Shown: in pieces, positions 1,216 through 32,983 of the stretch
How the letters are laid out: each line of letters begins with the position of its first letter
How positions within the stretch are numbered: the stretch's first letter is position 1
Assembly (NCBI RefSeq): GCF_030766825.1
Contig: NZ_JASFDV010000030.1
Location: 1 to 64,000, forward strand
Length of the DNA: 64,000 nt
Direction: 5' to 3'
From: Nocardiopsis sp. CC223A
GTDB lineage: Bacteria > Actinomycetota > Actinomycetes > Streptosporangiales > Streptosporangiaceae
Position numbers and translations under genes: made by a program
The notes under the pieces: model-generated
The model's input: the letters and a program-made list of their open reading frames with translations, nothing else
Told to the model about the DNA's origin: nothing
The model's database searches: none

Positions 1216-4200
1216 TTACTCCCGCGCGCTGTCAGGGTCGCGCAGGGGGCGCAGGCCCTCGTCCACGTCCGGCTGGGGGAAGGCGTAGGAACCCAGAAAG
1301 TTGATGTGGTCGAACCCCAGTGGAGACAGGCGCGCGCACATCTCCTCGGTGGCGGGGAACCCGTCGGCCCGCAGTTGGGTGACGGCGGCGTCGATGTAGA
1401 GGCTGTTCCACCACACGATGGCGTTCAGGGCCAGGCCCAGGGCGCCGAGCTGGTCCTCGAGCCCTTCGCGGTAGCGCTGCTTGAGCTCGCCGCGGTTGCC
1501 GAAGCAGATCTTGCGGGCGAGCTGGTGGCGGCCCTCGGAGATGTTGAGCTGGGCGGTGATCATCCGCCGGTAGCTCTCGTCGTGCAGGAACTGGAGCAGG
1601 TGCAGCGTCTTGAAGATGCGGCCGTAGTGGGCGAAGGCGTCGCCCAGTCCGGTGGGGCGGCCGTCGCGGGAGATCATGCGCACCAGGTCGTAGGCGCGCA
1701 CCGCCCCGGTGGTGAGCGATCCGGCGACCCGTAGCATGTCCTCCCAGTGGGCGCGGACCTTGTCCAGGCGGATGGTGTGCCGCGACATGGAGTCCAGGGG
1801 CCCGTAGCTGGCGCGGGTGTTGGTGCGCCAGAGGCGGGTGTCGCCCAAGTCGGCGATGCGCGGGGAGAACTGGTAGCCGCAGATCGCGAACAGGCCGAAG
1901 ACAATGTCGCTGTAGGAGGCGGTGTCGGTGATGACCATCTCCGGCTTGTCGCCGCCGTCGCGGGCGTGGATCGCGTCCAGGATGAACATCGAGTCGCGCA
2001 GCGTGCCGGGCACCACCACCCCGCCCAGGCCCATCACCCGGTCGTTGACGACGTTGAGCCAGGTGGCGCCGCGTTTGCGCAGCCCGAAGTACTTGGGGTT
2101 GGCCCTTGCGTGCAGGTTGCCGGTGGGGACGATGAACCGCATGCCATCGGCCGAGGCGATCAACCCGCCGCCCCACGCCTTGACGATGCCGATGCGGGCC
2201 TGGGCCTCGATCAGGCGCCCGTTCGCTGCGCTGATGGTCTCGGCGCGCACATAGCCCTGGTCGACCTGCTGGAGCCGGGCCAGGGTCAGGGCGTCCACGC
2301 CGGGTTTGGCCACGGGGGTCATGCCGATGTTGCACGCCTCGGCCACCAGCAGCGCGCACAGGCTCACCTCGAAGCCGTCCATATGCGCGTCGGCTCCGGA
2401 GATGTGGGTGAAGTCGCGGGGGAATCCGGTGCGGGCACCCACCTCCATGAGCAGCTCGGGGAAGTCCAGGCGGGGCATCATCGCGTCCACCAGGGCGCGG
2501 AACTCCTTCATCAGCGGCGGCTCGGCCAGGGCGTTAAGGGCCTCCACGCGCAGCTTGCCGCCGTCGAACTGCACGGCGGTGTTGGTGCCCAGCCCGTCCA
2601 GCACCCGCACGTAGCCTGCGTCCAGTGCCGAGGCCAGCTCGGCCAGGTGGCCGGCGGGCTCCTCCTCGAGCTTCAACGCTCGCAGGACCCGGGGCCGGGT
2701 CTGCTCCCACCGCTTCCCCGTCAGCAGGCGGGCGCGGGGGTCGCCCCAGCGGTCGGCGCCCTGGGCGAAGACGTCGCGGCGGCGCAGCGCCCGGTGCAGG
2801 TGCTCGATCACGCACAGGATGAACGCGGCCTTGTCCACCCGGTCCCCGTCCAGGTCGGGGTTGGCGTAGACCAGGCGCTTCCAGGAGCCGGTGACCAGCT
2901 CGTCGTGAGCGGCGATGTCGGTTGTGCGCACATGCTTGCGGCTGCGCGCGATGGACGCTGCGGTGCGCAGCGCCGCCAGCACCGGCTGTCCGGCCTCGGT
3001 GGCGTCGAAGGCGATGACCTCCACCAGTAGTTCGATGAAGCCCTGCACGGTGCGGTAGCGCTTGACCAGCCGAGCCCGCCACGCGGCGGCCGCGTCGTCG
3101 TCCTCGGGCACCTGCTCGACCACGGTCTTGACCGCGTCGATGAGTTTCTCGCGCGGGACCACCTCCTCGATGGCGTTCCACACCTCGGCCAGCGACACCA
3201 CCCGGGTGCCGGTGGCCTGCGGAGTGTGGATGAGCACGTCCACGGCGGCCGCCATCTTCTTGGCCGCGGCCTTCAGGTACGGCAGGGCGCGCAGTTTGTC
3301 CTCGTTGCCCTCGCGTTCGGCCTTGTTCAGCAGCTTGGAGGAGATCAACAGGTCCAGCCCGTCCAAGGCGTCGTCCACCGAGGAGGTCTCCAGGCGGCGG
3401 ACGGTGGCCAGCAGCGTGGCCGTCTGCCGGTTCTCCTCGAGGTCACGCAGGGTCGGGGCCTTGGACTTGAGCCCGTACTTGGCCAGGGTGTCCAGCTTGA
3501 CCGCAGACACATCCTCGAGGTTCACCCGCCCGGCGCCCAGTCCGCCGATCTCGGAGGTGCGGTCCAGCGCCTCGACCATGGACTGGCTGGAGACGCGGGT
3601 GGGTTCGGTGCGCAACCGCTCCAGTCCGGAGAAGCGCGTCCCGTCGGGTACCTGAAGCAGGCCGGTCATGCTCGAGCGGACGGTGTCGGGGGTGCGCTGG
3701 TGCAGGGAGGCGTGCAGGCGGGCGTTCTCGCTCTTGCGGACGTTGGTGACCACGCGGGCGAGCACCGTCATCCCCGGCAGCAGCACCTTCTTGTTCACCA
3801 GGTGCACGATCGCGCGGTCGAACAGGGTGCGCGGTCCGTCCTCGGTGGCCCAGACCCGGGCGGCCAGGTACTCGCGCAGGCCTTCCTCGCCCTCGCTGAA
3901 GTCGGTGTAGCCGAAGGTGTCGCGGATCTCCTGGGTGTGCTCGTAGGCGGTCTGCCAGCGGCGGCGGTATTCGCCGACGCAGGCGGGGTCCACGCCGAGC
4001 TGGTCAGCGACGAACGGCACGACCCTTTCGGGGACGCCGGTGGGGTTGTCGGGCAGGAACACGCCGAGCATGCGCACGGTGCCCCATTGCAGGGCCCACC
4101 CGAGTTTGGTCGCGGGGAGGCGCTTGGTGGCGACCGTTTCGTGGGCTTTGGCGTCCAGGCGGAAGAACTGCTCGAGGTCGCCGATGGACACCTCGTCGGG

Positions 4201-4251
4201 GAAGCGGGCATAGCGAGCGATCTGCTCGTCGGAGAGGAACTCATGTGGCAT
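1216..4251 (-). CDS. tnpA: Tn3-family transposase TnpA (element 1)
   Basis: The full-length 1011-aa product starts MPHEFLSDEQ, the usual Tn3 transposase opening, with an N-terminal DUF4158-like IR-binding part and a C-terminal DDE domain. The catalytic residues read as D702 (SADGMRF), D776 (ITDTASYSD) and E906 (NISEGRH). The C-terminal GLEDQLGALGL block is also intact. Family knowledge: it catalyses replicative transposition at 38-bp GGGG-starting ends with 5-bp duplications. Its start lies 107 bp from a 38-bp end at 4321-4358. No matching left end is visible before 1216, so the element probably extends past the window edge. No resolvase is visible on this side. Confidence 0.95.
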   Translation of the reverse strand: MPHEFLSDEQIARYARFPDEVSIGDLEQFFRLDAKAHETVATKRLPATKLGWALQWGTVRMLGVFLPDNPTGVPERVVPFVADQLGVDPACVGEYRRRWQTAYEHTQEIRDTFGYTDFSEGEEGLREYLAARVWATEDGPRTLFDRAIVHLVNKKVLLPGMTVLARVVTNVRKSENARLHASLHQRTPDTVRSSMTGLLQVPDGTRFSGLERLRTEPTRVSSQSMVEALDRTSEIGGLGAGRVNLEDVSAVKLDTLAKYGLKSKAPTLRDLEENRQTATLLATVRRLETSSVDDALDGLDLLISSKLLNKAEREGNEDKLRALPYLKAAAKKMAAAVDVLIHTPQATGTRVVSLAEVWNAIEEVVPREKLIDAVKTVVEQVPEDDDAAAAWRARLVKRYRTVQGFIELLVEVIAFDATEAGQPVLAALRTAASIARSRKHVRTTDIAAHDELVTGSWKRLVYANPDLDGDRVDKAAFILCVIEHLHRALRRRDVFAQGADRWGDPRARLLTGKRWEQTRPRVLRALKLEEEPAGHLAELASALDAGYVRVLDGLGTNTAVQFDGGKLRVEALNALAEPPLMKEFRALVDAMMPRLDFPELLMEVGARTGFPRDFTHISGADAHMDGFEVSLCALLVAEACNIGMTPVAKPGVDALTLARLQQVDQGYVRAETISAANGRLIEAQARIGIVKAWGGGLIASADGMRFIVPTGNLHARANPKYFGLRKRGATWLNVVNDRVMGLGGVVVPGTLRDSMFILDAIHARDGGDKPEMVITDTASYSDIVFGLFAICGYQFSPRIADLGDTRLWRTNTRASYGPLDSMSRHTIRLDKVRAHWEDMLRVAGSLTTGAVRAYDLVRMISRDGRPTGLGDAFAHYGRIFKTLHLLQFLHDESYRRMITAQLNISEGRHQLARKICFGNRGELKQRYREGLEDQLGALGLALNAIVWWNSLYIDAAVTQLRADGFPATEEMCARLSPLGFDHINFLGSYAFPQPDVDEGLRPLRDPDSARE

Positions 4252-8182: not shown

Positions 8183-8524
8183 ATGTACATTGAGACACAG
8201 TGGATCAACGTCGTTGTCGGCATATGCCTCATTGCCGCCTCATGCGCGTTCATGATCGCTCAGACGCGACGGCGCCATGCGCAGAAGCCCTGGCATTCGA
8301 GTTTGTTCTGGTCTATCATTCCGGGTCTAGTCGGGGGAATGGTGGTGATCGCGGAAACCCCAAGGCTGTTGGGGGTTGATGCGGGATCCTTGATTATCAG
8401 TGACATGGCGGCCAATGCCTTGGGCATCGTCGCGCTGCTGTTGGTCCTCAGGGCCATCGTCATCTTGTGCTTCCGGCTGGTCCGCTCCGTGTTCGACCGG
8501 ATGCAAACCTCCGCTACGAAGTAA
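8183..8524 (+). CDS. Small membrane protein, 113 aa, three predicted helices
   Basis: ATG 8183 has GGGAGAGC upstream. Hydrophobic segments fall at residues about 10-27, 44-60 and 78-99, with a basic loop (RRRHAQK) and a basic tail. Base composition is lower in GC than its neighbours. It converges on a secreted-protein gene across a shared hairpin; this pairing hints at a toxin/immunity or secretion partner but is not proof. No family is recognised. Confidence 0.6.
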   Translation: MYIETQWINVVVGICLIAASCAFMIAQTRRRHAQKPWHSSLFWSIIPGLVGGMVVIAETPRLLGVDAGSLIISDMAANALGIVALLLVLRAIVILCFRLVRSVFDRMQTSATK

Positions 8525-8526
8525 AA

Positions 8527-8556
8527 TGTTCCCCGCCACAGCTATGGCGGGGAACA
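8527..8556. terminator. Bidirectional hairpin between convergent genes
   Basis: A perfect 12-bp stem (8527-8538 with 8545-8556) with a 6-nt loop, placed 2 bp after one stop and 14 bp before the other. Confidence 0.8.
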
Positions 8557-8570
8557 CACCGTTTCGTGGG

Positions 8571-9257
8571 TCAGCTCAGGTTGCAGTCCATCCGAGTCGA
8601 GTAACGACCGTCCCCACCGCGGATCTGTGTGCACGGCTGGGCACTGGCTCCGAAGAAGTTGAAGTTGAACTGGGCCGCCTTGCGGATCTCCCAGTTCACG
8701 TCACGGGTGTAGTACCGGTTGAGGCCTTCGTACTCGTTGCCCTTGTAGCCCACACCTCCGGCCTGACTGACGCTGTGGCTGGTCACACTCGACCCGTTGT
8801 GGCACCATTTCAGCTCCATCCAGGTGTCACCAGTGTGAAAGCCCAAGTCGTACCACTCATCGTATTGGTAGTGCCGGTAGCACGCGGCCGCTTGCGTCTG
8901 CTGTTGCGCAGCGGCGACACCAGCTTCGGCGCGCTCTTGGCCAATCCGCGCCAACTCCACAGCCTCCTCACCCATAGCCTGGACCTGTTCGTCGTCAGGC
9001 CCGAGGAGCTCGAAGTCAGAGACGGCCGTCTCGGCAGTCATGTTATTGATGGCTTCTTCGAACAGCTCCTGTTCCAGGTCGGAGAAACCATCGACCACGG
9101 CTTGAGGGTCCTCCGACGTCCATACGGCGGTAGAGACATCCTCGCGCAGTTCTGCGCGCTCCTGCCCGCGAGGACTGTCGGCGTAGGCGGGGCCTTGAGT
9201 CAGCGCCAGGATGGATGCAGCCACAGCCACGGCGGCAAGGCAAGAAGACCTCTTCAT
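8571..9257 (-). CDS. Secreted protein of unknown function with Cys-containing C-terminal domain
   Basis: ATG 9257 is chosen because AGGAG lies 7 bp upstream and it gives a clean signal peptide (MKRSSCLAAVAVAASILALTQGPAYA, cleavage near residue 26). Residues 27-125 are acidic and helical (ELREDVSTAVWTSEDP, MGEEAVELARIGQERAEAG). Residues 126-228 form an aromatic, probably beta-rich domain with four Cys (126, 152, 209, 225): KWCHNGSSVTSH, GLNRYYTRDVNWE, FNFNFFGAS. The layout of signal, acidic pro-region and compact Cys domain resembles a processed exoprotein, but I cannot name the family. GC is lower than the surroundings. The stretch 9258-9423 shows only its promoter region. Confidence 0.65.
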   Translation of the reverse strand: MKRSSCLAAVAVAASILALTQGPAYADSPRGQERAELREDVSTAVWTSEDPQAVVDGFSDLEQELFEEAINNMTAETAVSDFELLGPDDEQVQAMGEEAVELARIGQERAEAGVAAAQQQTQAAACYRHYQYDEWYDLGFHTGDTWMELKWCHNGSSVTSHSVSQAGGVGYKGNEYEGLNRYYTRDVNWEIRKAAQFNFNFFGASAQPCTQIRGGDGRYSTRMDCNLS

Positions 9258-9423
9258 TCGATTGCTCCTGTTCTGAATGCGCACGGATTTTGGCGAGCGC
9301 CTGCGACGCTAACATTGGAGACGAGGTCTAATCAATGCCCACCTCTACCTTTAAGTCGCCCACGGGATGCGATAGATCCCGCACCCACTGATCACCACCC
9401 AAAAAGCTTTGACCTGCGAAGGT

Positions 9424-10117: not shown

Positions 10118-10155
10118 GGGGTGTGAGTAACAACGGAACAGGATCGTGCGCTAAG
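10118..10155 (+). repeat. Orphan third copy of the element-2 38-bp terminal repeat
   Basis: It matches the left end of the 24694-30422 transposon at all 38 positions except one (T for C at position 5): GGGGTGTGAGTAACAACGG then AACAGGATCGTGCGCTAAG. Its inner side points right, the same orientation as the repeat at 24694. The flanking five bases (GGGTC) differ from GACAC. Confidence 0.9.
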
Positions 10156-24596: not shown

Positions 24597-24693
24597 GGTG
24601 TGGTCGGACCACTGCTTTGCCCGACCTGGGCGGGGTCAGGGCCGGGGAGGGGCCGCGGGGACCGCTTCCGGGCGGTCGAAGGGGGCGGGACAC

Positions 24694-24731
24694 GGGGCGT
24701 GAGTAACAACGGAACAGGATCGTGCGCTAAG
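24694..24731 (+). repeat. Left terminal inverted repeat of element 2
   Basis: GGGGCGTGAGTAACAACGG then AACAGGATCGTGCGCTAAG; the inner end GCTAAG is classic Tn3. Confidence 0.95.
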
Positions 24732-24791
24732 CCCTCTTCCCACAGGTCAGAGAAGTGACACGTCCCAATGCCTGCGCCCCGGAGGGAATCG

Positions 24792-24890
24792 CCGCAGATA
24801 ATCTGCGATTATCTGCGGTGGAGTCGGCACTGTCCTGGGCGAACGCTCCCGCGCGGAGGGGGCGACTCGCCCCGGTTATCTACGATAACC
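24792..24890. promoter_or_regulatory. Internal recombination site (two palindromic cores) upstream of the recombinase
   Basis: Core 1 at 24792-24818: CCGCAGATAATC and its perfect complement around TGC. Core 2 at 24874-24890: GGTTATC-TAC-GATAACC. Both have inverted AT-rich arms and a 3-bp centre in GC-rich DNA, as expected of tyrosine-recombinase core sites. They lie just before the recombinase start, where the internal resolution site is found in TnpI-type elements, and may also act as its operator. Confidence 0.65.
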
Positions 24891-24903
24891 CCGGGGGGCG
24901 GCG

Positions 24904-25824
24904 ATGAGTGCGATCCACCGGATCGACACCGGCACCGCGGTGCCCACCCTCGGTGCGGCGGCCGAGGCGTTCCTCGCCGAGGTCGCCAACCCCAACACCG
25001 CCCGCGCCTACCGCAGTGCGCTGGCCGCCCTCGCCGACCGGTTCGGCACCCATCGCCCGGTCTCGGTACTGGAGGGCGAGCAGATCCCGGACAGTGTGGC
25101 CGACTGGTTCACCGCGACCTGGGGCACGGCGGCACCTGCGACGTTCAACGCCCGCCTGGGCGCGCTGGCCTCGGCCGCGGCCTGGTGGCGTGACCAAGGG
25201 TGGCTGTCTGGTGACCCACTGGTGCGCATCCGCCGCCTGCCCCGCACCCCCGACCACACTCGGGCTCTGGACCGCGCCGAGGTCGAGCGCCCGCTCACCC
25301 GGGAAGGGGTCGCCCTGCGCGAGCGCACCCTGTGGCGGCTGCTGTACGAATCGGCGGCGCGCGCCGAGGAGGTGCTCGCCCTGGACGTCGAGGAACTGGA
25401 CCTGCGCAACCGCCGGGTGAGGGTGCGACGTAAGGGCGGTGCGGCCGACGTCATCACCTGGCGTACCGCCACCGCGCGGCTACTGCCCCGGCTGCTGGTC
25501 GGCCGCTCCTCCGGCCCGGTGTTCACCACCGACCGGCGCGCCCGGGTCGAGGTACCTCCCAAGGACATCGACGCTGGCTCAGGGCGGGCCCGGCTGTCCT
25601 ACCGGAGGGCCGCCGAGCTGTTCAGCACGGCCGCCGGCGGGGCGACGCTGCACCAGCTGCGGCACTCGGCGCTCACCCACGCGGCTGAGGAGGGTGCCAA
25701 CACCTCCACCCTGCTCGCCTACTCCGGTCATACCTCGGTGGCTTCCCTGGCCCGCTACGCCCGGGTTTCACCTGAAGGGCTGGCCCGTTGGCAGGCAGGA
25801 CGCGACCCGGCACGCAGGAGCTGA
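24904..25824 (+). CDS. Tyrosine recombinase (TnpI-like cointegrate resolvase)
   Basis: 306 aa from ATG 24904. An N-terminal SAM-like core-binding domain (FLAEVANPNTARAYRSALAAL) precedes the catalytic domain with all active residues visible: Arg in LLYESAARAEEVLALDVEEL, Lys in VRRKGG, HQLRHSALTHAAEEG, His in SGHTS and Tyr in LARYARVS. Length and position right after two core sites favour a cointegrate resolvase over a phage integrase. Confidence 0.9.
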   Translation: MSAIHRIDTGTAVPTLGAAAEAFLAEVANPNTARAYRSALAALADRFGTHRPVSVLEGEQIPDSVADWFTATWGTAAPATFNARLGALASAAAWWRDQGWLSGDPLVRIRRLPRTPDHTRALDRAEVERPLTREGVALRERTLWRLLYESAARAEEVLALDVEELDLRNRRVRVRRKGGAADVITWRTATARLLPRLLVGRSSGPVFTTDRRARVEVPPKDIDAGSGRARLSYRRAAELFSTAAGGATLHQLRHSALTHAAEEGANTSTLLAYSGHTSVASLARYARVSPEGLARWQAGRDPARRS

Positions 25825-26147
25825 GCCACGCAGACCGTGTTTTCCGATCACCGGTTCCTAAATTCTTGTTTTTCGGATATTAATATACTTCTCATGTAGG
25901 GGAAATTCAAAGAATGTCAACCCTGGGGCCACATGTGGCCATGAGGTCAAGCTGCTCATGATATGCAGTTGGTTCTCCAGGTCCCGCTCACCTCGAAAAA
26001 CAGGAAAGCGCTAACCTCACAACTCCGCATAGCGCGTGGATGCCAAGACCGCGAGAGCGATGCTTGCGCAACAAAGGGGGTTGATACGGAGTTCCCGGTT
26101 CGTTACTTTCGGTGCTTCCTGATGTCCATTAGGAAGATGATGGTTTG
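25825..26147. other. Lower-GC intergenic stretch with palindrome
   Basis: Holds a perfect 14-bp palindrome (GGCCACATGTGGCC, 25927-25940) and AT-rich tracts (near 25858-25900, with TTGTTTTTCGG and ATATTAATATAC) that could be a promoter for the cargo. A 61-codon frame at 25963-26148 overlaps the cargo start by one base of its stop; its composition gives no support as a protein. Confidence 0.45.
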
Positions 26148-26858
26148 ATGAGACCAGGTGCATTCAAGGTCTTCACCGTGCTCCTCGCATTAGTGTCAAC
26201 CCTGCTGTACACATCCGTCCCCGCGTCTGCCGCGTCGACCAGCGACTCGTCCGTGGGAATGCTCCCGACCCCCAACCCAGAAATGGCAATGGGCCAGTTG
26301 GCAGGCACGAACGAGACCCTCGAACAGGCAGAGCAGATCGAGGGAGCCGAGGCCGAGTCCTACATCGAGCAGGCTCTCGGTGAAGCCGAGTCCACCGGTA
26401 CACACGTGCGTGCCGAGGAAGGCGAGACCGTTGCCGTCACGGACGGACGCGTCTCCCGCCTGGAAGACGGCACGACCCTCGTGGTCTTCCCGTTGGTCGG
26501 CGGCGCTCTCACCAGCAGTGCCCTGACCGTTTCCTTCTCTGCGGACGGGGAGGCCTACGTCCACGAGATTCTTCTGCGCGAGATCAGCTCGACCTCCGGA
26601 AGCGTCGAGTTCTGGTCCGGCGGGGACAAGCTCGTCGACCAGGTGGTCGAGTCGGACATGCCCTCCACCCAGGGGTGGTCTGAGTTCATCAACTGCCTGA
26701 ACAACTCTGGTGCGGCTGCCTGGGTGGTCACAGCGATCACCATCGCCTGCTCTGTCGCCTGTGCGGTCACCGCGGGAACCGCATGTATCGCATGTATCGC
26801 TGCTGCTGCGGGTACAACCGGCGGAGTGATCGGATACTGCATCAACGAAGGCTGGTAG
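26148..26858 (+). CDS. Secreted precursor with hydrophobic six-Cys C-terminal domain, bacteriocin-like
   Basis: 236 aa from ATG 26148 (a TTG one codon upstream is possible). A signal peptide covers residues 1-29 (FKVFTVLLALVSTLLYTSVP, then ASA). Residues 30-175 form an acidic pro-region (QAEQIEGAEAESYIEQALGEAE, then beta-rich TTLVVFPLVGGALTSSAL). Residues 180-236 are a compact, hydrophobic, Gly/Ala-rich domain with Cys 183, 201, 205, 213, 216 and 231 (SVACAVTAGTACIACIAAAAG, then GGVIGYCINEGW). Signal, long pro-part and small Cys-rich hydrophobic end recall halocin-C8-like bacteriocin precursors. The function is inferred; a structural exoprotein is possible. The next gene looks like its partner. 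Confidence 0.7.
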   Translation: MRPGAFKVFTVLLALVSTLLYTSVPASAASTSDSSVGMLPTPNPEMAMGQLAGTNETLEQAEQIEGAEAESYIEQALGEAESTGTHVRAEEGETVAVTDGRVSRLEDGTTLVVFPLVGGALTSSALTVSFSADGEAYVHEILLREISSTSGSVEFWSGGDKLVDQVVESDMPSTQGWSEFINCLNNSGAAAWVVTAITIACSVACAVTAGTACIACIAAAAGTTGGVIGYCINEGW

Positions 26859-26861
26859 AAG

Positions 26862-26875
26862 GAAAGGAGGTGATT
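26862..26875 (+). promoter_or_regulatory. Extended Shine-Dalgarno of the membrane partner gene
   Basis: GAAAGGAGGTGATT is complementary along all 14 bases to the usual 16S rRNA 3' end, 6 bp before ATG 26881. It starts 4 bp after the precursor stop. Such a long match is unusual and suggests strong independent translation of the second gene. Confidence 0.85.
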
Positions 26876-26880
26876 GGTAG

Positions 26881-27075
26881 ATGAAAGATCGCCTCCCTCA
26901 TGCTGGTTTCGCCGCTCTGGTGTCCTTCAGTGTTCTCTTCGCTGCATACGCGCCCTTTCAGTGGTCGGGAATCGCTGGTTACGCGGCTGCCGCGGTGGCG
27001 CTGATAGCCTGGGCGTCCTACGCAGGAGGAAAGCACCAGGAGCACAGGGCGAAGAAGCGGATGACGAAGATGTAG
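26881..27075 (+). CDS. Two-helix membrane protein, 64 aa, candidate immunity protein
   Basis: ATG 26881 follows the extended ribosome site. Two hydrophobic helices at residues about 8-24 (AGFAALVSFSVLFAAYAPF) and 30-47 (GIAGYAAAAVALIAWASYAGG) end in a basic tail (KHQEHRAKKRMTKM), which should stay in the cytoplasm. Small cationic two-helix proteins next to a secreted peptide gene are a common immunity layout. No sequence family is recognised, so this is inference from context. Confidence 0.65.
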   Translation: MKDRLPHAGFAALVSFSVLFAAYAPFQWSGIAGYAAAAVALIAWASYAGGKHQEHRAKKRMTKM

Positions 27076-27104
27076 AAACCCGTCTTCATCTCTTTTCGCA
27101 GCCA

Positions 27105-27137
27105 GGGCTCCGTCTCACTCCGAGTGAGGCGGAGCCC
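27105..27137 (+). terminator. Terminator of the cargo operon
   Basis: A 15-bp stem (27105-27119 with 27123-27137) with one G-U pair and a 3-nt loop. It separates the cargo from the convergent tnpA. The stretch 27138-27223 shows no gene. Confidence 0.75.
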
Positions 27138-27223
27138 GCTGTGTTCGAATGGAAATCGAACCGTCCACCGAATCGTCCTTCAGAAACGATCCAGGCTGGA
27201 TGTGCTGCCATCAGGCGAAGGCT

Positions 27224-30200
27224 TCACTTTTCAGTGTCGTCCTCGTCGACGTCGCTGTCGGGATCGCCCAGCGGACGCAGCCCTTCGGGCATCTCGGGCA
27301 GGGAGAAGGAGTAGCGGCCCAGCATGTTGATGTGCTTGCGGATGAACGGCGAGAGCCGCGCCACGTCTTCGTCGCGCACGTCGAACCCCTCGGTGCGGAG
27401 CTTGTTCAGGGCGGCGTTCATGTAGCGGGTGTTGAACAGCACGACGGCGTTGAGGACCAGGCCCAGCGCGCCGAGCTGGTCCTCCATCCCTTCGTGGTAG
27501 CGCTGGTAGAGGTGGCCGCGCTTGCCGTGGAAGATGAGGCGGGCCAGGGCGTGGCGGCCTTCCTGGAGGTTGGACTGGGCTTTGATGGTGCGCCGGTAGC
27601 CGGGTTCGTCGGCCAGGCGCAGGATGTGCAGGGTCTTGGGGATGCGGCCGAAGTGGGCGACGGCGTCCCCCAGTGGGGTGGGGCGGCCGTCCCGGGAGAT
27701 CATGCGGATGATGTCGTGGGCGCGCACCGCGCCGGTGTGGATGGAGGCCACCACTCGGCAGATGTCGCCCCAGTTGCGTTCGATCTTGGCGATGTCGACC
27801 CGGCCGCGGGCCACCGCGTTGAACGGGCCGTAGTCGGCCCGGGTGTCGATGCGCCATAGCTTCTGGTCGGGCAGGTCGGCCAGCTGTGGGGCGTAGTTGA
27901 ACCCGGTGAGGGTGAGCAGTCCGTAGACGATGTCGGAGTAGGAGGCGGTGTCGGTGACCACCGTCTCCGGGCGCTTGCCGCCGTCGCGGTCATAGAGCAC
28001 GTCCAGCACGTGCAGCGAGTCGCGGGGGGTGCCGGCCACGACCTTTCCGCCCGGTCCGGAGGCCTGGTCGTTGAGCATGTTCAGCCAGGTCGCGCCCCGG
28101 CCGCGGCCGAAGTACTTGGGGTTGGGGCGGGCGTGCAGGGTCGTGGTGGGCACGACGAAGCGCCCCCCCGTCCACCGAGGCCACCAGCCCGCCACCCCAC
28201 ACCCGCGCGAGCTCGATGGCGGCCTGGGCGTCGATGAGGGTGGCGTTGACGGCCTTGTAGGTGGCCAGACGCAAGTAGGTCTGGTCGACGTGGGAGAGCC
28301 GGTCACGCCGCAGCGCCTTGTGGTTGGCGATCACCGGCGTCATGCCGACGTTGCAGCCGTGGGCCACCAGCAGGGCGGCGATCGAGATGTGCAGGTCCTT
28401 GAGCCGGGGCTCACCGCCGGTGATGGAGGTGAACGCCTCGTCGGCGCCGGTCCAGGTGAAGACCTCCAGCAGGACCTCGGGCAGGTCCACACGCGGCATC
28501 ATCGCCTCCACCGCCCTGCGCAGCGCCACCAGGCTGGGTTCTTCGGGCAGCGGTTCCAGCGCGGCCAGGTGCAGGCGCTCGTCCGGGCCCATCCGCGCCT
28601 GGGTGCTGGCTGGCAGCCGTTCGGCGGTCTCGCAGTAGGCCGTATCGAGGCGCTCGGCCCAGGTGGTGAGGAACTCCCCGCCCTGCTCGGGCAGGCGCAG
28701 GCTGGCCAGCGCCGTGGCCTTGACCGCCCACGCCGCGCCCTTGAGCAGCTTCGCCCCTGGGTCACCCCACTTGGAAGAGTTGAGCGCATAGATCTCGCGG
28801 CGGCGCAGCAGCCGGTGGAACTGCTCCAGCACGCAGAAGACGTAGGTCTTCCAGTCCACCCGGTTGCCCTCCAGTTGGGTGGGCCGCGGCACCAGGCGCC
28901 GCCAGGAGCCCACCAGGACCTGGGTGTCGATCTCGTCGGCGGTGACGTACTTGCGGCCCATCAGCGCGGGTAGGCTCCGCAGCGCCTCCAGCACGGGGCG
29001 GGCCTCGTCGCTGGAGCCGAACTTGATCACCGAGCACAACTGGCCCAGGAACGGGCGGACCGTGGCGAACCGGTTGACCAGCGAGGCCCGCCACGCCTCG
29101 TCGGCGTCGGAGTCGGGGGCCGGCGCCAGTTCCGCGACGGCCGACAGTGCCGAGGCCAGGTCGCGGCGTGGCACGACCGCCTCGATGCGCTCCCAGACCT
29201 GTTCCACTGAGTCCAGTCCGGGGCGCACGATCTCGCCGGTTTCCGGGTCGACGTCATCGGAGGTGGCCTCGATCAGCGCCTGGACCGCTGCCGCGAGCTT
29301 GGTCGAGGCCCGCTCCATCCGCGGCAGCGTGCGGAGCTTCTCCTTCGCGTTCTCCCGCTCGGCCCGGGCCAGCAACCGGGTGGAGACGAGGAAGTCCAGC
29401 AGGTCCAGGGCGTCGTCGATCGATCGGGTGTTCAGGTGCACCATGGTGGCCAGCAGAGTCGCGAGCTTGCGCTCGTCGCCGTGGCGGGCCAGTAGGCCGG
29501 CCTTGCCGTCCATCCCGTAGCGCCACAGCTCGGCCATGCGCCGCGGCGGCACCGCGGAGACGTCGATCTCGCCCATGCCTAGCTCGGCGATCTCCTTGGC
29601 GCGTTCAAGCGCATGGGCCATCTGCGGGCCCGAGGCCTTGGCCAGTGGTCGGCGCAGCCGCTCCAGCTTGGAGAACCGGCTCCCCGCAGGTACCTCCAGC
29701 AAGTCCAGCAGCGCATCGCGCTGCTCGGCGTCCAGCAGCTCGTACAGGGTGTCCCACAGGTGCTTGGTCGCCTCGTCGCGCACCCGCGCCACCAGCCGGG
29801 CCAGCACGCTCACCCCCGGCATCAGCACAGGGCGCTTGCGCAGCTCGGCAACGGCGGCGTCGAACAGCGCTTTGGGGCCCTCTCCAGTGGTGTAGGCGCG
29901 GGCGAACAGCCACTTCTCCAGGTCGTCGGTGGCTTCGGAGAAGTCCTTCCACCCGTCGGCCTTCTCGATCTCTCCTGCGTGGGTGCGGGCCGTGCCGTCG
30001 CGCTGGCCGTAGAGCTTGATGCAGGAGGGGTCGGCGATCCTCAGCTGTTCGGCGACGTAGTCCGCGACCTCGGCCGGGACCTGCCGCGGGTCGGGCAGGA
30101 ACCGGCGCAGGTAGCGCACGACGCCGATCTGGACACCGAACCCCAGCTTGTTGTGGTCACGCCGCTTGGACATGGCTCGTTGGCGGTCCACGTCGTCGAG

Positions 30201-30293
30201 GAAGAAGTACTTCCTCAGCTCATCGCGTGTGGGCGCGCCCTGGAACGACGCGAACGCCGCCGCCTGCTCATCAGACAAGAACTCGACCGGCAC
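27224..30293 (-). pseudogene. tnpA: Tn3-family transposase TnpA of element 2, frameshifted at a G7 run
   Basis: Start GTG 30293 (MPVEFLSDEQAAAFASFQGA) has GGAGG at 30300-30304. The reading frame breaks at 28163-28169, a run of seven C (seven G in the gene); with six, SVDGG continues RFVVPTTTLHARPNPKYFG without interruption. The break sits on the first catalytic Asp (SVDG). Downstream the second Asp (VTDTASYSD) and the Glu (NLQEGRHALAR) are intact, as is the C-terminal block. Restored length is about 1022 aa. As written the transposase is truncated, but a ribosomal or transcriptional slip, or a single sequencing error, would restore it. Confidence 0.9.
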
Positions 30294-30384
30294 CCGGAAC
30301 CTCCATCGGGTCTGTGGTTTGAAGACCCGCAAAGACTCCGGCAACGATCACGACCGGGCAAACCCGGACTCAGCAGGACGAACG

Positions 30385-30422
30385 CTTAGCGCACGATCCT
30401 GTTCCGTTGTTACTCACACCCC
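30385..30422 (-). repeat. Right terminal inverted repeat of element 2
   Basis: Minus strand reads GGGGTGTGAGTAACAACGG then AACAGGATCGTGCGCTAAG. It has T at position 5 like the orphan copy at 10118, while the left end has C. Confidence 0.95.
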
Positions 30423-30541
30423 GACACCTCCCCCGGGGTGCCCGGCTCCGCACGCCCGGTGTCATCTGTACCGTCGTTCGGGACATCGACCACGCAGAGA
30501 CGGTCGGCGGGGTGGCGGTGCGCGAGGAGGGGGAGGCCGCG

Positions 30542-31332: not shown

Positions 31333-32301
31333 TCAGGCGTTCGATGCGGGCCGGCAGGGGTGACAGCCGGGCGTCGAGCGCGTCGGCGGGTGCGCGGTGA
31401 CCCCGTCCAGGCCGACCTGCTCGGCGAGCCGCTTCACGATGAGGTTGATGCCGGCCCCGGACATGCGGCCGGTTCCGCGGCCGGCCGTGCCGGGGCTGCC
31501 CAGGGGGCGGCCGTGCCGGTCGATGGAGCGCGACAGCGGCCCCTGCCCGGCGTCGGCCTCGGCCAGGGCCCGGTGGTGGGCGATGGCGGTGCGCACCGGG
31601 CAGGTGAGCAGGTGGGTGCCGTAGGGCACGGCGACCGTCACCCCGGCGGCGTCGCGGTCGGTCTTGGAGGCGGCGACGAACACCTCCAGCCCCTCGGGGA
31701 GGGTGCGCAGGTCGCAGGTGTCCAGGGCGGCGGGCTCGGAGCGGCGGGCCATCATCGCGTACCCGAGCAGTAGCAGGGTGCGGTCGCGCAGGCCCCGCAG
31801 GTCCTCGCCCGCGGCCTGGAGCATCGGGCGCAGCTCCTCGACGGTCAGCGCGGGGGCGCGGCGCCGGCGCCCCCCTTCTTTGGTCCACTGGCGGGTGTAG
31901 GAGCGCAGCGCCATCCGGGCGGCCTTGGTGGTGAGGCCGTGGCCGTCGGCGTGGTGGCGCGAGGCGATGGCGCCCAGGGCGCGGTCGATGGTGGCCGGAG
32001 CCGCCCCTGCGGTGGCGAGGCGGTCGACGTAGGAGGCCAGCGTCTCGGCGGTGGCCGGCAACGGGGTGCGCCCGGCGTCGGCGCACCAGGAGGTGAAGGC
32101 CGTCCAGTCGCGGGCGTACCCGGTCCGGGTGGAGGGGGCCCAGCCGTCGGCGACGCGGGCCGCGGCCGAGGGGGTGGGCTCGGCGTCGGCCGGACGGAAC
32201 AGCGCCCCCGGCGCCGGGGGAGGCGGCACCGTCGCGGGGAGGGCGGTGGGCGGGTCCTGGCCGTCGTCGAAGAGCACCCCCGGCTCGCGCTCGTCCGCCA
32301 T
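31333..32301 (-). pseudogene. Tyrosine recombinase lacking its catalytic C-terminus
   Basis: ATG 32301 (GGGGAGGG upstream). The core-binding domain (STRTGYARDWTAFTSWCADA) and catalytic Arg (LLLLGYAMMARRSEPAAL) are clear. After GLDGVTAH the remaining sequence is not recombinase: no Arg follows the His box and the Tyr is missing. One base out of frame the tail reads DALDARLSPLPARIERLNAQ, a MerR-like ending. The gene lost its active end, probably by deletion joining a regulator's tail. Confidence 0.75.
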
Positions 32302-32337
32302 GGCACCCTCCCCGCCGTGGAACCGCCCGGTCCCGTT

Positions 32338-32381
32338 CTGACTTTCGACAAGTGGGCCTTTCATGTGTGAGGGTTTGCACC
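32338..32381 (-). repeat. Repeated motif, copy 3, upstream of the tyrosine recombinase
   Basis: Minus strand reads GGTGCAAACCCTCACACATG, then GAAAGGCCCACTTGTCG and AAAGTCAG. It lies 37-80 bp upstream of the recombinase start, next to a strong hairpin, which supports a role as its recombination or operator site. Confidence 0.6.
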
Positions 32382-32391
32382 AAGGTATGAA

Positions 32392-32428
32392 AAGGCCCCC
32401 GCGCAACCCAAGGTTGCGCGGGGGCCTT
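32392..32428. terminator. Strong bidirectional terminator
   Basis: A perfect 17-bp stem (32392-32408 with 32412-32428) with a 3-nt loop. It separates the EF-hand gene from the recombinase region. Confidence 0.85.
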
Positions 32429-32443
32429 GCGGTCTCCGGCGGG

Positions 32444-32983
32444 TCAGGCCACCCCGAAGAAGATCCCACCGCTGGGGTTGTCCTCCGGCGAGGAGAAGAA
32501 CTCCCGCACGGCACGGACCACTTCATGCCGGGACAGGACGGTGTCGCCGTCGGTGTCCAGCGCATGGAAGAGGTCGGCGGCGGCGAAGTCCGGGACCTTC
32601 AGGGCGCGGAGCAGGGCCTGGAACTCGTCGCGGCCGATCTGGTCGTCGCCGTCGGCGTCCAGGACGTCGAAGACGGCGTGCGCCAGGCCCTCCAGCATGT
32701 TGAACCGGCTCGTGTCCACCAGCAGCGCCTGCAGCGCCCGGGTGTACTCCTCGCGGGAGAGCCGCTGACCCTGGACCTGGGCGTGGCGCAGCAGCTCCAT
32801 CCACCACATCTGGAAGGTCACCTTCAGGGCGGCGGCCCTGTGGCCTGCGCGGTCCGCCTTGGCGGCGTCCAGGTAGGCCGCCACCAGGCGCTCGTAGTCG
32901 GACCAGTCGACGTGGCCGTCGCTGTCGGTGTCGTGGGCGAAGAAGAAACGGTCGAACCTGCTGCTGTCGGTCGCGGTGGTCAC
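32444..32983 (-). CDS. EF-hand calcium-binding protein, calerythrin-like
   Basis: 179 aa from GTG 32983. Three calcium loops are visible: DTDSDGHVDWSDYE (residues about 18-31), DADGDDQIGRDEF and DTDGDTVLSRHEV. A fourth, degenerate hand is likely between. Calerythrin-like proteins buffer or sense calcium in actinomycetes. It is monocistronic, ended by the 32392 hairpin. Confidence 0.93.
   Translation of the reverse strand: MTTATDSSRFDRFFFAHDTDSDGHVDWSDYERLVAAYLDAAKADRAGHRAAALKVTFQMWWMELLRHAQVQGQRLSREEYTRALQALLVDTSRFNMLEGLAHAVFDVLDADGDDQIGRDEFQALLRALKVPDFAAADLFHALDTDGDTVLSRHEVVRAVREFFSSPEDNPSGGIFFGVA

Follow-up and report, generated by a model that had tools for sequence, protein, structure and literature searches.

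The 64,000-nucleotide stretch of Nocardiopsis sp. CC223A DNA analyzed here (contig NZ_JASFDV010000030.1, positions 1 to 64,000; the window) contains a Tn3-type transposon of 5,729 bp at 24694-30422, with bounds that are exact to the base and with a two-gene cargo that is the main subject of this report. The ends are 39-bp inverted repeats at 24694-24732 (+) and 30384-30422 (-), equal at 38 of 39 positions with a sole C/T mismatch at position 5, and both abut the 5-bp target duplication GACAC, located at 24689-24693 on the left and at 30423-30427 on the right. An earlier note on this DNA had placed the element at 24689-30427, which is right and corresponds to the element plus both duplications, and had defined it by GACAC and by repeats of 38 bp, which we find to be 39 bp long. 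From left to right, the element comprises the left end, an irs-like region, tnpI (+), the cargo pair (+), a hairpin, tnpA (-) and the right end. Terminal inverted repeats of about 38 bp, a 5-bp target duplication and a Tn3 DDE transposase spread over two frames are all present, together with a tyrosine recombinase, as the earlier note had recognized (matches to PF01526, PF13700 and NF033527, and to PF00589, respectively); this is a genuine, precisely bounded TnpI-type Tn3-family transposon in an actinomycete.

The arrangement of ends and duplications exceeds what chance would produce, because five other elements bounded by related inverted repeats are each flanked by a perfect 5-bp duplication with a sequence other than GACAC: L041 (8,171 bp, GGAAT), L094 (7,067 bp, ATATC), L093 (6,627 bp, ATGAG), L039 (3,199 bp, TGGAC) and L033 (2,175 bp, GTCTC). 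At L097, AGCAC is found on both sides only when the repeat is taken to be one base longer, the inverted-repeat pairs of L036 and L028 have no matching duplication flanking them, and L095 and L096 have one end only. The repeat with three or fewer mismatches is present in 16 of 298 family genomes, and 103 of 338 have TnpI relatives at E≤1e-40, many of those listed having less than 50% identity; many of the TnpI relatives have no ends resembling those of the window element within 10 mismatches, and such relatives were excluded from statements on complete elements. Two of the bounded stretches, L033 4056-6230 and L039 6356-9554, are internally deleted derivatives with both ends and the 5-bp duplications intact, and two others of about 1 kb, L036 9070-10032 (genome G119) and L028 519-1532 (genome G074), have no tnpI or tnpA match and are possibly miniature derivatives. 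The window itself has a lone third copy of the 38-bp end at 10118-10155, which agrees with the right end at every base; a search of the rest of the window at up to 10 mismatches gave it no partner. Because the window from 10199 onward is collinear with genome G092, close to this lone end, the latter may be the relic of an earlier insertion or of a one-ended event.

The tnpI gene (24904-25824, +) encodes a tyrosine recombinase of 306 amino acids (PF00589, E=5.5e-17), which is linked to the same ends in L034, L042, L061 and L039. Upstream of it, a palindrome at 24792-24818, CCGCAGATAATC-3 bp-GATTATCTGCGG, is the probable recombination core of an irs (IR1-IR2-like); in alignment, it is kept in L034, L042 and L061 and degenerate in L031. 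The conserved core is followed 60 bp further on by a second TnpI-site-like repeat, GGTTATC-TAC-GATAACC (24877-24893, DR-like), with aligned copies upstream of tnpI in L034, L042 and L061 and none in L031. The region upstream of tnpI is thus a probable irs-like recombination site with the layout of the Tn4430 and Tn5401 irs, in which, according to PMC7157771, an inverted core and further repeats lie next to tnpI and one end.

The tnpA gene is read on the minus strand in two parts, an N-terminal part at 27990-30344 (PF13700, E=1.9e-46; PF01526, E=1.5e-26) and a C-terminal part with the DDE domain at 27224-28306 (PF01526, E=9.6e-100), which together span the Tn3 transposase profiles PF01526, PF13700 and NF033527. 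As assembled, the reading frame shifts within a C7 run at 28163-28169. Since three related tnpA genes are uninterrupted at this point, the shift more likely reflects decay or a homopolymer assembly error than programmed frameshifting; for three related transposases on Streptomyces plasmids, the annotation gives one coding sequence of 3,057 nt each. The description of the element as complete accordingly holds for its ends, site and genes but not for the tnpA frame, which is broken as assembled. Elsewhere in the window, at 1228-4251 (-), there is a second Tn3-family transposase with a continuous frame, 58% and 41% identical to the two tnpA parts, and ends of its own were not found near its start.

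The host locus can be followed in related genomes by the genes that flank the element. All 40 genus genomes searched contain a match to the left-flank gene, and both flanks together have strong matches in three of the relatives (G092, G097 and G102), separated by gaps of 631, 160 and 886 bp, respectively, that contain no element sequence; in G092, the gap is filled by unrelated DNA. The earlier note had proposed that empty sites be checked for one GACAC. The locus is indeed free of the element in these three relatives, but a single GACAC is unreadable there, as the intergenic sequence is too diverged, a judgment made by alignment of the joined flanks for G092 and G097 and from BLAST pieces for G102. 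Just to the right of the element, the window contains a recombinase-like open reading frame (31333-32565, -) with phage-integrase matches in Pfam that fall below cutoff; an EF-hand calcium-binding protein of 179 amino acids is encoded at 32444-32983 (-).

Between the convergent tnpI and tnpA, relatives of the element carry different genes. The element DNA matches 1,466 plasmid records, none across more than 80% of the element length, and we examined the annotations of five related loci of Streptomyces-type plasmids drawn from the best 15 of these records. One has DUF6461, a hypothetical protein and a methyltransferase between recombinase and transposase; the second has DUF6343, hypothetical proteins and a SpoIIE-type phosphatase; the third has 4-hydroxybenzoate 3-monooxygenase with a helix-turn-helix protein and no annotated recombinase; the fourth has an SDR-family protein with a helix-turn-helix protein and no annotated transposase; and the fifth has a DMT-family transporter and no annotated Tn3 transposase. 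Among the genomic loci, inspection of open reading frames, which is the source of the following gene names in place of family searches, indicates a sigma-factor-like pair between tnpI and tnpA in L042, a MerR/phosphatase/MFS-like set adjoining tnpI in L034, and glycosyltransferase-, acetyltransferase- and TetR-like frames in L041, where tnpI and tnpA are present as fragments only. Variable cargo between convergent tnpI and tnpA is normal for this lineage. Tn3 elements are best known for resistance, catabolic and virulence cargo, and the earlier note had called the window cargo atypical for the family. It is a two-gene cargo unrelated to resistance, but the five plasmid loci carry other non-resistance passengers and the slot is variable, and the window cargo is therefore less exceptional than that note held. 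A backbone with one variable slot, present in many actinomycete genomes and plasmids, offers a handle for finding further mobile gene sets.

In the window, the slot is occupied by cargo gene 1 (26148-26858, +), encoding a protein of 236 amino acids (an alternative TTG start at 26145 adds one residue), and cargo gene 2 (26881-27075, +), with AAGGAGGTGAT just upstream, encoding a membrane protein of 64 amino acids that is a candidate immunity protein. The gene 1 protein has a hydrophobic N-terminal segment at residues 6-24, likely a signal peptide, followed by a middle part and by a C-terminus that is hydrophobic at 189-207 and has six cysteines in the last 60 residues. The gene 2 protein is hydrophobic with a basic tail, as judged by hydropathy. 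The cargo genes have a lower G+C content (63% and 60%) than tnpI (74%), tnpA (69-70%) and the flanks (75%). Upstream of the pair lies a cargo-associated block (25909-25956, +) with the palindrome GGCCACATGTGGCC, and downstream, between the convergent cargo and tnpA, a hairpin with a 15-bp stem (27105-27137), which is terminator-like with no evident T-run; its minimum free energy is -38.6 for 56 nt, and 0 of 200 shuffles are equally stable. The window has another secreted-looking protein, of 227 amino acids, at 8571-9254 (-), adjoining a hydrophobic protein of 113 amino acids at 8183-8524 (+); this pair (8183-9284) is low in G+C, has the lone transposon end within 1 kb and gives no significant Pfam or NCBIfam match.

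Of 341 family genomes, two have close homologues of the cargo: the genome to which the window belongs and that of Nocardiopsis sp. TSRI0078 (G114), which is the sole confirmed locus among 26 candidate stretches. The two genes have the same order in G114, with identities of 81% (gene 1) and 84% (gene 2), and comparison of the two copies gives ratios of nonsynonymous to synonymous substitution rates (Ka/Ks) of 0.188 for gene 1 as a whole, 0.084 for residues 176-236 of that gene and 0.10 for gene 2. Because these ratios are low, both cargo genes are, by substitution pattern, under purifying selection and working, with the tightest constraint at the Cys-rich C-terminus. The G114 genome has no transposon ends at three or fewer mismatches, and its only tnpA-like stretches, with 71-72% identity, lie elsewhere in the genome. 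The ABC-transporter genes to the right of the G114 cargo are common in the genus (matched in 37 of 39 genomes), and since the segment L032 11100-12000 of the G114 locus maps elsewhere or nowhere in those genomes, the cargo there is, judging from the mapping, in or beside a variable region. As the left-flank gene and the cargo are on different G114 contigs (C2 and C6), G114 is not a case of the cargo at the same locus without the element. Neither this outcome nor GACAC repeats in an uninterrupted relative, which the earlier note had named as grounds for rejecting its proposal, was found.

The G114 copy, located outside the transposon in the same genus, bears on the idea that the gene 1 product is a membrane-active secreted protein acting within the producer's own population, for developmental killing or as a signal, comparable to the SDP peptide of Bacillus, with gene 2 for self-protection. 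The layout of the pair fits this idea equally, but genes present in only 2 of the 341 genomes are more readily understood as an accessory weapon than as a developmental factor. Nor is there an SdpC-type match in NCBIfam, which we take to contain such a model, and nothing resembling SdpA/B was noticed among the neighbours of the G114 copy, which no family search covered; we regard a role within the producer's population as unlikely.

A more distant homologue was obtained with phrog_33667, a phage-derived family whose function is unknown, which is matched in its second half by the window protein (E=4.8e-7), the G114 protein (E=5.5e-8) and a protein of 251 amino acids in genome G938 (E=1.1e-6). 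A search of 296 class genomes with this family gave matches in two of them, the window's genome and G938, and in none of 14 controls. None of 2000 shuffles reaches the score of the G938 homologue against the window protein, and, taken separately, the C-terminal half carries the signal (0 of 2000 shuffles), whereas the N-terminal part carries none (1614 of 2000). The alignment pairs five cysteines and also the final Trp. A small membrane-protein reading frame adjoins the G938 homologue. A three-row model of the homologues matched 1 of 191 genomes in the order of G938, namely G938, which is itself in the model. Plasmid records, phage records and viral contigs contained no relative of the cargo, and in the same collections the G938 protein gave nothing beyond chance and the three-row alignment no relative. 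In a sample of the phylum, 37 of 396 genomes match the gene 1 protein at E≤0.1, the window's own included; 16 of 37 other places were re-examined by tblastn and reading frames and rejected as chance matches, as they mostly involve low-complexity or non-coding frames and none has the Cys-rich end. The strongest of these, in G458, covers residues 52-130 only, with a tblastn E of about 2e-5 in a tiny database with composition correction off. By these searches, the cargo is new and represents a rare, undescribed family with Cys-rich secreted-looking proteins, which is directly testable.

The match to phrog_33667, the sole significant profile match, would accord with an envelope or exclusion function of the pair, such as superinfection exclusion, exercised for the transposon itself or for a phage or plasmid that hosted the pair earlier, in place of an antibacterial role. 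No PADLOC match at E≤1 and no relative in the phage records or viral contigs searched speak against such a function, and a Cys-rich secreted C-terminus is in general unusual for exclusion proteins, so we consider this possibility doubtful.

A decayed copy of the element in another genus (G317) indicates that ends and cargo have traveled together. Its left end has 6 mismatches, its tnpI is 88% identical in protein but broken, its tnpA is truncated, and the stretch corresponding to window 26008-27126, cargo genes included, is missing. The left remnant retains the block 25909-25956, which also has an 83% match upstream of the G114 cargo, and the right remnant begins within the right arm of the hairpin. 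The 15-base palindrome of the block occurs exactly once each in G000, G114 and G317 and has no exact copy in G092 or G097; one-mismatch matches are found in all five genomes. Because the cargo-associated block and part of the hairpin remain, we infer that the ancestor of the G317 copy carried the cargo, which a deletion then removed. Of the two remnants, the palindrome block, matched upstream of the G114 cargo, counts for more than the hairpin. Thus, the proposal that cargo and ends travel together holds for at least one other lineage, given the G317 relic, but not for G114, where the cargo lacks the ends and is at a different locus. That the cargo is a chance neighbour never mobilised by the transposon would suit G114, with no such ends near the cargo and the cargo belonging to an island of its own, but in the window the cargo is inside exact ends with duplications, and the G317 copy still has the upstream block specific to the cargo as well as a piece of the hairpin downstream, leaving this explanation highly improbable.

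Taken together, we favor, with somewhat better than even confidence, a mobile bacteriocin/immunity cassette carried by a TnpI-type Tn3 transposon in a passenger slot between convergent genes. The transposon would enter an intergenic site by replicative transposition, duplicating GACAC, and TnpI, acting at the irs-like site beside the left end, would resolve the cointegrates; the slot between tnpI and tnpA accommodates different passengers in different relatives and the two-gene cassette here. The gene 1 product would be secreted as a precursor, with its Cys-rich hydrophobic C-terminal part acting on competitor membranes, and the small membrane protein encoded by gene 2 would protect the producer. 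Bacteriocin loci often have this layout, in which a secreted precursor with a hydrophobic Cys-rich end is paired with a neighbouring small membrane protein. The earlier note's term bacteriocin-like is therefore plausible as to layout, with both reading frames present, but finds no significant match in Pfam, NCBIfam or PADLOC, so it describes a presumed function. If the pair is of bacteriocin type, genes for competition are also among those that this lineage of transposons spreads through actinomycetes.

Several observations weigh against a bacteriocin/immunity cassette. The window gene 1 protein has no NCBIfam match at E≤10, including NF035925 (geobacillin-26) and TIGR04450 (Halocin-C8-like/immunity-bacteriocin fusion); the G114 homologue reaches NF035925 at E=3.5, far below cutoff, and TIGR04450 at E=3.7 in the middle part only, and G938 has no NF035925 match. 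No similarity can be detected between the gene 2 protein and the small membrane protein of G938, as 549 of 2000 shuffles do equally well, and in the gene 1 homologue of G938 the N-terminus stays below the hydropathy threshold for a signal segment, the signal peptide of the window protein itself having been called from hydropathy and by eye. There is no dedicated maturation or export gene inside the cassette. The AlphaFold model of the gene 1 protein has a mean predicted local distance difference test score (pLDDT) of 40.2, with no predicted fold; in the solved structures, the protein matched two engineered proteins at E 0.17-0.21 and nothing else. Finally, because tnpA is frameshifted, this copy of the element may be unable to move by itself.

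The position of the cargo also bears on whether the pair forms a toxin-antitoxin-like addiction module of the transposition machinery. Tn3 elements, including the TnpI types Tn5401 and TnBth4, carry such pairs, which, according to PMC7157771, usually sit immediately upstream of the resolvase and close to res (33-37 cases), belong mostly to known intracellular toxin families and are rarely elsewhere. The window cargo is downstream of tnpI, secreted-looking and without a match to toxin-antitoxin families in Pfam or NCBIfam, making a module of this kind very unlikely. An extracellular counterpart is an improbable extension of the bacteriocin/immunity cassette: the transposon might use it as community-level addiction, in which carriers kill nearby cells and siblings that are without it or lose it, thereby maintaining and spreading the transposon, and the Cys-rich C-terminal domain might represent a new actinomycete bacteriocin family moving among transposons, phages and chromosomal islands. 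In the open-licence literature on Tn3/TnpI elements in actinobacteria and on bacteriocin or passenger cargo, no such element turned up by title and abstract, nor did one, among the matches listed, in the Nocardiopsis bacteriocin literature searched in the same way.

The closest known counterparts of the backbone are the Streptomyces-type plasmid elements of CP108401.1, NZ_CP109217.1, NZ_CP108010.1 and NZ_CP020040.1, which share about 73-75% DNA identity over tnpI/tnpA, related ends, the same gene order and 5-bp duplications wherever both ends were found. They differ in their passengers and in a transposase that is continuous in the two with an annotated transposase; in NZ_CP108010.1 and NZ_CP020040.1, the transposase coding sequence is not annotated and an IS5-type transposase is. 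With Tn4430 and Tn5401 of Bacillus, the window element has in common the Tn3-type transposase and TnpI, and its probable irs-like site resembles their irs beside tnpI and one end, as described in PMC7157771, but tnpI and tnpA are colinear there and convergent here, where the passenger slot separates them. Of the two, Tn4430 is not known to carry a passenger, and Tn5401 has a toxin-antitoxin pair upstream of tnpI, in contrast to the window cargo downstream of it. As for the cargo, all three homologues match phrog_33667, no member of which was located in the phage or viral collections searched. The nearest functional parallels are the class III bacteriocins geobacillin 26 (245 amino acids) and alicyclobacillin 24 (238 amino acids), reported in PMC13176240 to be active and to have a Sec signal, a C-terminal transmembrane helix and a membrane-associated action. 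The gene 1 protein resembles them in size class, likely secretion signal, C-terminal hydrophobic helix and the fact that no modification genes are required (PMC13176240), and differs in having no significant NF035925 match. Because it falls outside the geobacillin-26 family, the gene 1 protein is better said to work, as we propose, like a bacteriocin of this class than to be one, its many cysteines being a feature of the window cargo family.

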